Source: an uncultured SAR116 cluster alpha proteobacterium (GTDB lineage: Bacteria > Pseudomonadota > Alphaproteobacteria > Puniceispirillales > Marisalimonadaceae). From it: a DNA stretch of 64,000 nucleotides. Positions 716 through 39,337 of this stretch are shown here, piece after piece. Under the pieces are notes generated by a model, which was given only the letters and a program-made list of their open reading frames with translations, did no database searches and was not told the origin of the DNA. The position numbers were made by a program, and so were the translations under genes. The stretch covers positions 1 to 64,000 of the forward strand of contig CABYED010000003.1 of the NCBI GenBank assembly GCA_902517815.1, given 5' to 3'. The first letter of the stretch is position 1; every line of letters begins with the position of its first letter.

Positions 716-1474
716 TTGAAACTTTCAGAAATTAAAAACCAAAATTTAATTACAAATGTTTTAAATTTTTACAGAGAAATTGGAATCGACATTACAGTTT
801 CTAGTAAATTTTTTCATAAAGAGCCTCTTTTATTTAAAGATAACGAAAAAAATGTAAGACTAAACCAAAATGGCTGTATCCAAAAAAATAATGATTTATT
901 AATCAAACAACTAGAATATTCATTCAAAAATTTTGAAGGTTGTAAATTAAAAAAAACATCTACAAATTTTGTGAGCTTCTACGGAAATATAAATTCGAAG
1001 TTATTAATTATTGATGGACCTCCAGATGTTGAAGAAGATAAGAAAGGCGCATCTTTTGTTTCAAGTAAAGGATTATTATTTGAAAAAATGCTTAATGCTA
1101 TAGAACTGAAGATAGAGGAAACTTTCATTGTTAAAGGTATTCCTTGGAGACCTCCAGGTAATAGGTACCCAAGTAATGAAGAAATAAAAATCTGTAGACC
1201 CTTTATTCTTAATTTGATAAATTTATTAAAACCGAAAATAATTGTCTGTTTGGGCGAGGTGCCCACTTACCAAGTTTTAGAATTGAAAGAAAGCATAATT
1301 AAACTGAGGGGGAAATGGCAAATATTAAAATCTAAAGAGTTTAACTGTGAATTTCCTGTTCTTCCAACCTTTAGTATCTCACATTTATTAAACAGACCAG
1401 ATTTAAAAAAATATGCTTGGGAAGACATGAAGTTACTAAGAGACAGAATAAAAGAAAATTTAATTACGTTATGA
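716..1474 (+). CDS. Uracil-DNA glycosylase family 4-like protein with degenerate catalytic motifs
   Basis: A 252-residue protein starting at TTG 716. The fold signature of family 4/5 uracil-DNA glycosylases is clear: an FEGCKLK segment near residue 73, SFVSSKGLLFEKML near 113-126, WRPPGNRYP at 144-152 and the closing helix AWEDMKLLRDRI. The two catalytic motifs are altered: the GEAPG loop reads DGPPD (100-104), and the region that normally carries HPS/HPA reads SIS within TFSISHLLNRP (218-228). The enzyme may therefore be inactive on uracil or act differently. It overlaps the downstream transglycosylase gene by four bases (ATGA), which indicates translational coupling. Confidence 0.75.
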   Translation: MKLSEIKNQNLITNVLNFYREIGIDITVSSKFFHKEPLLFKDNEKNVRLNQNGCIQKNNDLLIKQLEYSFKNFEGCKLKKTSTNFVSFYGNINSKLLIIDGPPDVEEDKKGASFVSSKGLLFEKMLNAIELKIEETFIVKGIPWRPPGNRYPSNEEIKICRPFILNLINLLKPKIIVCLGEVPTYQVLELKESIIKLRGKWQILKSKEFNCEFPVLPTFSISHLLNRPDLKKYAWEDMKLLRDRIKENLITL

Positions 1475-3246
1475 CAATTTTAAAAAATATAAAATTGCTT
1501 TCTGCATTTATTCTTTTAGGTTCATTATTTTTTTCTAATATTTCATTTGCAAATAATGAAAATGTTAAAAAAATACTCTCAAAAAATGATATCAAAATTT
1601 ATAAAAAAATTTTTGAAATTCAAAAAATTCCAATTAAAAGTAAAAAATCTAAGGAGTGGAAAAAAGTTGACGATTTAATCAGGCAGTTAGATAATAAAAT
1701 ATTATTAGGAAATGTATATGCTGAACGATTTTTGCATCCTACTGGTTGGAGAAGTTCATACAATGATTTAAAAAATTGGCTTGATAAATATAATGATCAT
1801 CCAGATGCCACGAGGATTATCAGGATAGCTCTTAAGAGAAAACCGAATAATTTAAAGAGTCCAAAAAAACCAACACCAGGGTTTCTAAATGGATATGGTA
1901 CATACAAAGCAAACGTATTAAAGCCTAGGTTTCCTATTGATAATCATAAATATAAAACGTTCGCTTATTCTACTTCAATCAAATTTAGAAGAGCTATTAA
2001 TAAAAGAAATATTATATATGCTGAAAATTTGTTGAATAGCAAGAGAGTAAAAAAAAATCTCACTCAAAATGAGTTATCACAGCTTAGAGCAGAATTATCA
2101 CATGCGCTGTTTATTTTTGAAAAGGATTATAAATCTATAAGACAAGCTAGACTTTCATTAAGTTTGTCCCAAAAGCCAAACTCTCTAGCATTGTGGGCCG
2201 GTGGATTATCATCATGGAGAATAAAAGACATTAAATTGTCAAAATATTTCTTTAATAAATTATCAGATATTAAGGGACCTGAAGGAATAACTGCTGGTGG
2301 AGGTTATTGGTCAGCTAGAATTTCATATTTATTGGGAAATGCTAAAGATGCAAATTATTTCTTAAAAAAAGCAGCTACAAAAGAGCGAACTTTTTATGGA
2401 TCATTGGCAATGGCTTCTTTAGGTTATAAGTATAAACCAAATTTTGACTTACCAAAATATGACCGAAGTTTAATTAACAAAATTTTAAAATATAGGGGTG
2501 GTGTAAGAGCCTTAGCATTAATAGAAGTAAATGAATTCTACAAAGCCGCAAGAGAGTTTAGAAAAATTATTCCTAAATTTGACGTAAAAGATTATCCTCA
2601 ATTATTATCATTCACATCAAAAAACAACATGCCAGGATTAACTTTTAGGTTGGCTGCTATTTTAAGAAATGATCATAATAAAATATTATTAGGAGGTTTA
2701 TATCCTGTACCATCCTGGAACATAAATACTTCAGACTTGAAAGATAAGGCACTTCTATATGCTATAGCTCGACAAGAATCAGGTTTTAACCCAAGAGCCA
2801 AAAGCCCATCAAAGGCCATGGGTGTTCTTCAAATAATTCCTTCGACAGCAGCCTTTATAATGAAAAACAGAGAATATAGACTTAGAAGAAGTAAAAATCA
2901 CTTGCTTTATAATCCCCCTCATAACATTTCAATTGGTTCTAAATATATAAAATTTCTCTTTAGTTTGCCTATCGTAAATAATGATTTAATGTGGATGTTA
3001 GCAAGCTATAATGCCGGTCCAGGAAATTTTGGAAAATGGATAAAACACAGAAATTACAAATATAAAGACACTCTACTAATGTTGGAAAGTTTGCCTGCTA
3101 GAGAAACTAGAAATTATATAAAGTTAGTGCTTACAAATTTATGGGTCTACAAGACCAGATTTAATCAAGATAACACAGTACTGCTCTCACTTGCATCTGG
3201 AAAATCTATAGATTCAAAAGTTTTTTTCAAAAATACAGGAAGTTAA
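1471..3246 (+). CDS. slt: Soluble lytic murein transglycosylase (Slt-type)
   Basis: A 591-residue periplasmic enzyme that cleaves peptidoglycan glycan strands to 1,6-anhydromuropeptides. I chose ATG 1471, not the in-frame codon at 1417, because it overlaps the upstream stop as ATGA and begins directly with a signal peptide (cleavage likely after SFA, residue 27). A long alpha-helical superhelix region precedes the C-terminal SLT domain. The catalytic glutamate is E436 in ARQESGFNP, followed by AMGVLQIIPSTA and SYNAGPGN (512-519). Length and domain order fit the Slt70 class. The neighbours are unrelated housekeeping genes. Confidence 0.93.
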   Translation: MTILKNIKLLSAFILLGSLFFSNISFANNENVKKILSKNDIKIYKKIFEIQKIPIKSKKSKEWKKVDDLIRQLDNKILLGNVYAERFLHPTGWRSSYNDLKNWLDKYNDHPDATRIIRIALKRKPNNLKSPKKPTPGFLNGYGTYKANVLKPRFPIDNHKYKTFAYSTSIKFRRAINKRNIIYAENLLNSKRVKKNLTQNELSQLRAELSHALFIFEKDYKSIRQARLSLSLSQKPNSLALWAGGLSSWRIKDIKLSKYFFNKLSDIKGPEGITAGGGYWSARISYLLGNAKDANYFLKKAATKERTFYGSLAMASLGYKYKPNFDLPKYDRSLINKILKYRGGVRALALIEVNEFYKAAREFRKIIPKFDVKDYPQLLSFTSKNNMPGLTFRLAAILRNDHNKILLGGLYPVPSWNINTSDLKDKALLYAIARQESGFNPRAKSPSKAMGVLQIIPSTAAFIMKNREYRLRRSKNHLLYNPPHNISIGSKYIKFLFSLPIVNNDLMWMLASYNAGPGNFGKWIKHRNYKYKDTLLMLESLPARETRNYIKLVLTNLWVYKTRFNQDNTVLLSLASGKSIDSKVFFKNTGS

Positions 3247-38220: not shown

Positions 38221-38256
38221 ATTTATTAAACAATAACTTAATTATAAGGAAAAAAA

Positions 38257-38820
38257 ATGGCTTTAAAAATAAGATTGTCTAGAGGTGGAGCAAAGAAGAG
38301 ACCTTTTTACAAAATCGTAGTTGCAGAAGCATTGTCACCAAGAGATGGAAAATTTATAGAAAGATTAGGTTCATATAATCCAATGGTAGCTAAAGACCAC
38401 GCTGAAAGATTAGTTCTTGATATTGAAAGAGCAAAATACTGGTTATCAAAAGGCGCTCAGCCAACATTAAGAGTTGCAAAAATGCTATCATCTGACGGTT
38501 TAGTAAAAGCACCTGTGATTAGAGATCAACCAATTAAAAGTGCTCCAGGTAAGAAAAGGCAAGAAAGAGAAGCAGAAGCAGCAGAAAAGTCAGCAGCTCC
38601 AGCAGAGGTGGCAGCTACAGAAGAGGCACCTGCTACAGAAGCTCCAACAGAGGAAGTAGCTAAAGAAGAGTCACCTGCTGCAGAAGCTCCAGCAGAGGAA
38701 GCGGCTACAGAAGAGGCACCTGCTGCAGAAGCTCCAACAGAGGAAGCGGCTACAGAAGATGCACCTGCTGCAGAATCTGCAGCGGAGGAAGCAGCCAAAG
38801 AAGAGGACAAAAAAGAATAG
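38257..38820 (+). CDS. rpsP: 30S ribosomal protein S16 with repetitive acidic tail
   Basis: A 187-residue protein. The first 85 residues are a normal S16 ([35 protein letters not shown]). After a short basic stretch, residues 121-180 are four copies of a 15-residue Ala/Glu/Pro/Thr unit ([15 protein letters not shown] in consensus), ending in KEEDKKE. S16 is usually 80-120 residues long; some alphaproteobacteria carry extended tails, but a tail made of clean tandem repeats is striking. It leads the rpsP-rimM-trmD-rplS operon. Confidence 0.96.
38617..38796 (+). repeat. Four tandem 45-base repeats in rpsP
   Basis: Units lie at 38617-38661, 38662-38706, 38707-38751 and 38752-38796, each encoding a 15-residue acidic unit. 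The second and third are the closest in sequence, consistent with duplication by slippage. Confidence 0.85.
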
Positions 38821-38827
38821 AATAACT

Positions 38828-39337
38828 TTGTCTAAAAAAAAATTAATTGAAATAGGATGCTTTGTAGGTGTCCATGGTATTAAAGGAGAAGTTAAGCTTA
38901 AAAGCTTTACAGAAATTCCAGAAAATATTTTTTCTTTCAATGAAATTTTTACAGAGAGCTCTGAAAATCCAATAAAATTTAATTTGATTAGAAAATTAAA
39001 ACAAATATTTATTTGCAAAATTGAAAATGTTGAAACAAGAACTGACGCTGAGAATTTTAAAGGATTAAAGTTATTTATATCTAGAGAAAGTTTACCAAAA
39101 CTTACAAATAATGAGTTTTACCATTCTGATTTGTTGAACTTTGAAGTTTATAATTTAAATAAAGAAAGCTTTGGCAAAGTAATATCTTTGGAGGATTTTG
39201 GAGCAGGGTTATTGGTTGAGGTAAAAGAAAATAATAAGACTTTTTATTTGCCAATGGGAAAAAATTTTCTAAAAAAAATTGATTATAAATATAAACAAAT
39301 AATTTTAGATCTTGAGAAAGATTTAATCGAAAATTAA
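38828..39337 (+). CDS. rimM: Ribosome maturation factor RimM
   Basis: A 169-residue protein assisting 30S assembly by binding S19. The start is taken as TTG 38828, eight bases after the rpsP stop, because the family N-terminus then follows directly (IEIGCFVGVHGIKGEVKLKS). The longer in-frame extension to 38759 would run through the rpsP repeat and is rejected. The PRC-barrel domain occupies the C-terminal half (FYHSDLLNFEVYN, FYLPMGKNF). It lies between rpsP and trmD as usual. Confidence 0.93.
   Translation: MSKKKLIEIGCFVGVHGIKGEVKLKSFTEIPENIFSFNEIFTESSENPIKFNLIRKLKQIFICKIENVETRTDAENFKGLKLFISRESLPKLTNNEFYHSDLLNFEVYNLNKESFGKVISLEDFGAGLLVEVKENNKTFYLPMGKNFLKKIDYKYKQIILDLEKDLIEN

Follow-up and report, generated by a model that had tools for sequence, protein, structure and literature searches.

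What does a protein with the fold of a uracil-DNA glycosylase (UDG) do once both of its catalytic motifs have changed? The question is raised by an open reading frame at one end of the window (the whole 64,000-nucleotide stretch of SAR116 DNA analysed here), which the initial annotation had described as a UDG homologue that keeps WRPPGNR and the overall layout with both motifs altered. This description was borne out. The 252-residue product matches PF03167 at 71.4 bits (Pfam cut-off, 24.3), lies above the NCBIfam cut-off for family 4 (TIGR00758; 129.5 vs 125.3 bits), carries WRPPGNR at residues 144–150, and reads DGPPD and SIS at the two motifs. Its AlphaFold2 model (mean pLDDT, 87) overlays the family-4 structures 1vk2, 1l9g and 1ui1 with Z of 27 (27.4 for 1vk2) and 1.5–1.6 Å over 182–188 residues, such that fold and family score both place the protein among the family-4 UDGs. 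The features of the locus are as follows.

716..1474, + strand: UDG-like gene (252 aa, TTG start, stop included); family-4 UDG homologue, predicted to be catalytically dead
746..799, + strand: N-terminal conserved segment, residues 11–28 (LITNVLNFYREIGIDITV); class-wide motif, proposed clamp-loader tether
800..895, + strand: linker, residues 29–60; variable in the alignment
899..1465, + strand: UDG-fold domain, residues 62–250 (about), from the AlphaFold2 model and structural overlay
1013..1027, + strand: altered motif 1, DGPPD, residues 100–104 (GE[A/G]PG in family 4)
1034..1036, + strand: E107, kept; equivalent of Tth E47
1133..1135, + strand: K140, at the position of the uracil-binding N80 of Tth; Asn lost
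1145..1171, + strand: WRPPGNRYP, residues 144–152, including N149 (Tth N89); invariant in 25 sequences of family f1
1250..1258, + strand: LGE, residues 179–181; E181 is invariant and corresponds to UdgX A141
1373..1390, + strand: altered motif 2, SISHLL, residues 220–225 (HP[A/S]xLL in family 4); S220 replaces the catalytic His
1406..1420, + strand: KKYAW, K231–W235; kept in 42/42 His-less sequences and aligned with KRALW of HolD
1471..3246, + strand: downstream slt-like lytic transglycosylase gene, named by eye; its start overlaps the stop of the UDG-like gene

In the model, residues 2–21 form a helix and residues 34–51 of the linker are predicted to be disordered (pLDDT <50).

Residues lost and kept in the catalytic pocket

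Alignment to UDGa of Thermus thermophilus (Tth) places E41, G42, N80 and H155 at G101, P102, K140 and S220, all four altered, and the equivalents of E47, F54 and N89 are retained as E107, F114 and N149. The change of the uracil-specificity Asn (N80) to K140 is a loss beyond the two motifs noted first, and motif 2 reads SIS at residues 220–222 vs HP[A/S] in family 4. Compared with Tth, at the four positions that we take to be the Fe-S cysteines of family 4, C76 and C160 are kept and F73 and W144 occupy the other two; Trp at the latter position is common to the orthologues of the order. A further invariant residue, the new E181, aligns with A141 of UdgX (alignment to 8iiq), which is listed as a DNA-backbone contact in the available text of PMC10359453.

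According to the accessible part of PMC5387724, H155S in Tth UDGa lowers k2 by more than three orders of magnitude, E41Q lowers k2/Km by three orders, replacements of N80 cost more than 40-fold, the E41G-G42E variant is inactive, and N89 is the proposed water-coordinating residue. As the lost residues are each critical in Tth UDGa, uracil cutting by the window protein is predicted, on its sequence, to be very unlikely. No intact GEAPG or HPS was found elsewhere in the protein by alignment to solved enzymes, by family alignments or by overlay on 1vk2, 1l9g and 1ui1, and the observation of two altered motifs thus stands against an alternative alignment. H223 (within SISHLL) was considered as a relocated catalytic His and rejected because H and Y alternate at this position within the clade.

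Conservation within the family and order

The comparison at the level of the order included 90 orthologue loci, of which 28 belong to the window's family (f1; genera g1 and g3), with motif 1 of three contig-cut f1 genes taken from a separate reading of their sequence. Across f1 the altered motifs are conserved and not drifting, the point on which the initial annotation had made its interpretation depend: motif 1 reads D-[GSC]-x-P-[DNE] in 28/28 loci and the H155 position holds S, N or G in 28/28, and the His155 equivalent is kept in 62/62 orthologues from the order's other three families. For 25 f1 sequences, the H155 position is S (n = 16), N (n = 7) or G (n = 2) and the N80 position is K (n = 15), N (n = 9) or T (n = 1), with D100, P103, E107, F114, WRPPGNRYP, E181 and N149 invariant. 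Reading frames are open in the 25 complete f1 orthologues, dN/dS is about 0.15–0.32 in the 12 closest orthologue pairs, and the slt-like gene directly follows the UDG-like gene in 25/25 f1, 2/2 g2, 6/6 f2 and 55/58 f3/f4 loci. The two orthologues from genus g2 (L210 and L211) have also lost WRPPGNR, with the same slt neighbour and an open frame of ~205 aa retained in both genomes; in genus g4, an orthologue of the UDG-like gene was not found. Judged from these alignments, the window protein is under purifying selection and is not decaying. Three genomes of genus g8 of the order (G073, G074 and G075) each have one in-frame TAG in the orthologue frame, near the N-terminus or the gene end.

The initial annotation had also asked whether the genome holds another UDG, and the one other PF03167 match in the genome is a family-1 Ung (L002) with intact motifs (VGQDPYH and HPSPFS). 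Because of this intact enzyme, the suggestion that reduced uracil repair could raise mutation is weakened. Compensation by Ung as a special trait of the dead lineages was rejected, as most listed genomes of the order possess at least two UDG-superfamily matches and the presence of Ung therefore does not mark those lineages. Nine loci from genera g2 and g4 of the window's family (L202–L208, L220 and L221) encode a family-5-like UDG (GLAPG) with a second motif of YHCS, a Pro to Cys change from the usual YHPS at that position.

Distribution and loss of the pocket across the Alphaproteobacteria

A protein query found the UDG-like family in 366/385 alphaproteobacterial genomes. Low-scoring or unmatched genomes (n = 60) were then examined further, of which 53 gave a match. 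A total of 80 named loci, in part chosen by the peptide PWRPPGNR, were added, and 246 of the 256 aligned sequences of this non-random sample were complete enough for scoring H155: 204 have retained the His and 42 are without it. The H155-less sequences consist of 25 from f1 and 17 others, the latter from SAR116 (L122 and L123), genus g2 (L210 and L211), the Rhizobiales (L136, L138 and L149) and families designated by code (L275, L279, L282, L283, L288, L290, L297–L299 and L301). A FastTree phylogeny of 166 thinned rows, built without the motif columns, has at least 10 changes at H155, a count that long branches may distort. P228, K231 and W235 are kept in all 42 His-less sequences (W235 in 152/204 of the His-bearing sequences), and a strict pattern for the N-terminal motif is found in 183/204 His-bearing, 22/25 f1 and 13/17 other His-less sequences. 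In these alignments, what the alphaproteobacterial family can dispense with is its catalytic residues, and the pocket has been lost repeatedly. In family f94, a dead UDG-like protein occurs with a canonical cysteine-bearing family-4 UDG (L282 with G228:C61; L284, G506; L286, G338), a pattern that would fit the acquisition of a fresh active copy alongside the dead protein.

Relationship to the psi subunit of the clamp loader

Overall, the evidence points to a psi-like role in the replisome, which was absent from the options in the initial annotation. The AlphaFold2 model of a gammaproteobacterial HolD has psi itself as its nearest PDB entries (Z, 20), and 32 of the 33 PDB rows at ranks 3–35 in VIA-align are family-4 UDG or UdgX, with middling scores (Z, 5.0–6.4; 103–108 residues; 13–18% identity). 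Only VIA-align ranked UDGs; their absence from the top 50 of Foldseek with the same HolD model counts against the psi-like reading.

Profile comparisons gave a graded result. The psi proteins of family f215 (L325, L327 and L328; PF03603 above cut-off for the two scanned) align with two alphaproteobacterial UDG-like sets in HHalign at 95.4% and 96.8% probability and with f1 at 72%. HolD without f215 reached 50% for f1 and 26% for the degenerate set, and gammaproteobacterial HolD without f215 only 1.5% for the canonical alphaproteobacterial UDGs, which weighs against a link to psi. The two-sequence g2 set scored ≤3.6% and the controls (n = 27; 18 unrelated families or Ung, 9 reversed alignments) ≤0.8%. 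Searched with a UDG-like HMM, the f215 psi proteins gave E-values of 9e-11 to 3.5e-9, and the remaining HolD proteins 0.057 or higher. In the opposite direction, a HolD HMM searched over 260 UDG-like proteins placed L397 at the top (1.2e-4), followed mostly by dead f1 proteins, with L210 at 1.4e-3 and the window protein at 8.9e-3 (E-values for 260 sequences; the proteins are AT-rich). Three further searches are unfavourable to the psi-like reading: PF03603 had no match to the window protein up to E 10, a profile of the N-terminal segment against PDB sequences returned eight weak unrelated matches and no psi, and the gammaproteobacterial HolD profile against PDB sequences returned psi chains and then noise, with no UDG. 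The N-terminal motif is also absent from some dead lineages (L279 and L297–L299), a further point against.

Gene order and the N-terminus provide additional connections. The gene rimI is present in 25/29 HolD loci, f215 has the order tsaB-rimI-psi, and in a phylum-level sample of 50 family-4 UDG loci (47 outside the Alphaproteobacteria) rimI adjoins 4/47 of the non-alphaproteobacterial loci (L331, L344, L397 and L409). L397 is an intact family-4 UDG (PF03167, 1.3e-31) beside rimI with the N-terminus MSNVQHQYLDALGITRWVIRAPA, residues 4–25 of which match PF03603 positions 3–24 (E 0.016, below cut-off), and L409 is a degenerate UDG-like protein in the order tsaB-rimI-X. A Pro occurs nine residues past the N-terminal Gly in 61% of 198 alphaproteobacterial sequences and 70% of 27 HolD sequences. 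The case that psi and family-4 UDG share an ancestor is strong for f215 and suggestive for gammaproteobacterial HolD. No publication linking psi/HolD to UDG was found among the openly licensed literature.

Distribution of chi and psi

Chi (HolC, PF04364) is present in 336/385 alphaproteobacterial genomes, and the 28 matches to psi (PF03603) among 299 Pseudomonadota genomes include none in the Alphaproteobacteria. A table in the accessible portion of PMC3290774 lists HolC for the alpha-, beta- and gammaproteobacteria and HolD for one proteobacterial class only, and the available text of PMC3197488 acknowledges as a gap that chi occurs in some bacteria where psi cannot be found. The same text describes the psi N-terminus as disordered, conserved and required for clamp-loader binding, and the N-terminal peptide is shown bound in 3GLI (PMC13213242, in the part available). 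Within the order, chi was above the PF04364 cut-off in 60/73 f3 and f4 genomes and in 0/58 f1 and 0/5 f2 genomes, assemblies that are often incomplete, a result that counts against the psi-like reading. A chi profile built from 30 sequences of the order had no match in the window and f1 loci, which cover a minor part of the genome. Three explanations offer themselves: divergence of chi past the profile in f1, loss of chi, or a partner other than chi. Co-occurrence with chi was discarded as proof of psi, being uninformative: chi is present in part of the dead lineages and undetected in the rest, including f1.

Proposed role and alternatives

We propose that the window protein is a family-4 UDG that has been conserved without catalytic activity and has a structural role, as the alphaproteobacterial counterpart of psi (HolD), at a probability of about one half. 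The broader scenario, that psi arose from a clamp-loader-tethered family-4 UDG and that the ‘family 4 UDG’ of the Alphaproteobacteria (and some other Pseudomonadota) is the missing psi, with glycosylase activity lost in many lineages (gammaproteobacterial HolD, f1 and other alphaproteobacterial families) and the replisome role kept, is judged somewhat better than an even bet. In this model, the N-terminal segment would attach to DnaX of the clamp loader in the manner of the psi N-terminal peptide in E. coli, and the disordered linker that follows would join it to the UDG-fold domain. That domain would then be the binding module, its partner being chi/SSB in genomes with chi, or some other protein, by analogy with psi, which bridges DnaX and chi-SSB. 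Family members with intact pockets may in addition deliver uracil excision at the fork, a job that would be gone in the window's lineage, with Ung remaining. We infer that the protein binds DnaX, that the family acts as psi in the Alphaproteobacteria, and that it functions in the window's lineage where chi is not recognisable. Chi is undetected in f1, and the protein is therefore not filed as a member of HolD; it is filed as a dead family-4 UDG homologue that is probably psi-like in its work.

A conserved non-catalytic scaffold for a partner other than the clamp loader, with the likeness to psi reflecting ancestry only, is possible though doubtful. Such a protein would fit a dead pocket under selection, undetected chi in f1 and a neighbour that is slt and not rimI, but leaves aside the N-terminal segment and its Gly-to-Pro spacing, common to alphaproteobacterial proteins and HolD, and the class-wide occurrence of chi without psi. 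The initial annotation had offered a non-catalytic damage-binding protein, of which the non-catalytic part agrees with the loss of critical residues and the damage-binding part is not supported. A sensor of uracil or damage that binds lesions without cutting may be consistent with the invariant pocket residues N149, E107 and F114, but the base-recognition Asn varies (K, N and T in 15, 9 and 1 of 25), two acidic residues, D100 and E181, are invariant at the entrance to the DNA site, and WRPPGNR is gone altogether in genus g2, all of which make it improbable.

Different chemistry, another of the original options, is likewise improbable. Though an enzyme acting by changed chemistry, or on a different substrate, could use D100 and E181 (invariant in 25 sequences) along with E107 and N149, the Tth counterpart of which is proposed to coordinate water (accessible part of PMC5387724), other His-less lineages keep the gene without any of the new residues and neither a leaving-group His nor a substitute is fixed (S, N and G in 16, 7 and 2 of 25). 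Decay, which had been suggested as well, would account for missing catalytic residues in a genome rich in AT, the further erosion in genus g2 and the orthologue not found in g4, but is contradicted by open frames in the 25 complete orthologues, the low dN/dS, the fixed neighbour and the same motif changes in 28/28 f1 loci, and is highly improbable. Least credible is a still active uracil-DNA glycosylase: the protein passes the TIGR00758 cut-off, but H155S alone costs more than three orders in Tth UDGa (PMC5387724, in the part available) and here four pocket residues are altered.

Were the psi-like reading correct, a family-4 UDG-like gene in 366/385 alphaproteobacterial genomes would gain a role in the replisome, and an intact pocket would mean a physical link between uracil repair and the clamp loader. 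The conversion of a repair enzyme to a structural subunit would be traceable from the intact L397 through the dead but conserved SAR116 proteins to the reduced HolD, and a ‘UDG’ annotation would cease to indicate uracil repair in genomes of this kind. The dead enzyme by itself is a modest finding; the interest rests on the psi-like reading.

Comparison with known systems

The window protein has in common with the family-4 UDGs (Tth, 1ui0/1ui1; Thermotoga maritima, 1vk2) the fold, RPP.NR, the equivalents of E47, F54 and N89 and the TIGR00758 score, but lacks the equivalents of E41, G42, N80 and H155 and two Fe-S cysteines and has an extra N-terminal segment and linker. It resembles psi (HolD, PF03603; 1em8_B, 3sxu_B) in a conserved N-terminal segment of similar pattern, the flexible linker, a UDG-like domain without catalytic residues and a C-terminal K..[AL]W pattern; unlike psi, its domain is about twice the size, WRPPGNR is kept, a PF03603 match is absent, the gene adjoins slt and not rimI, and chi is undetected in f1. 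UdgX of Mycobacterium smegmatis has the family-4 fold in common (Z, about 24), but the window protein is without the KRRIH-type loop insertion (alignment to 8iiq), has lost motifs 1 and 2, and scores 64.1 bits for TIGR03914, below the cut-off of 189.95. Vaccinia D4 is a UDG within a replication complex with a role independent of catalysis (PMC1936997, available part), but it is a viral family-1 protein tethered via A20, with a replication role of unrelated origin. The N-terminal part of the family-A DNA polymerase of phage phiLo (9qhs_A) also matches the window model (Z, 16.1; 153 residues), a further case of a replication protein that incorporates a UDG-like domain. Elsewhere in the window (38248–39334), an open reading frame for an S16-like ribosomal protein (identified by eye) overlaps a long repetitive frame rich in Lys, Gln and Arg, which suggests a repeat-containing C-terminal extension.
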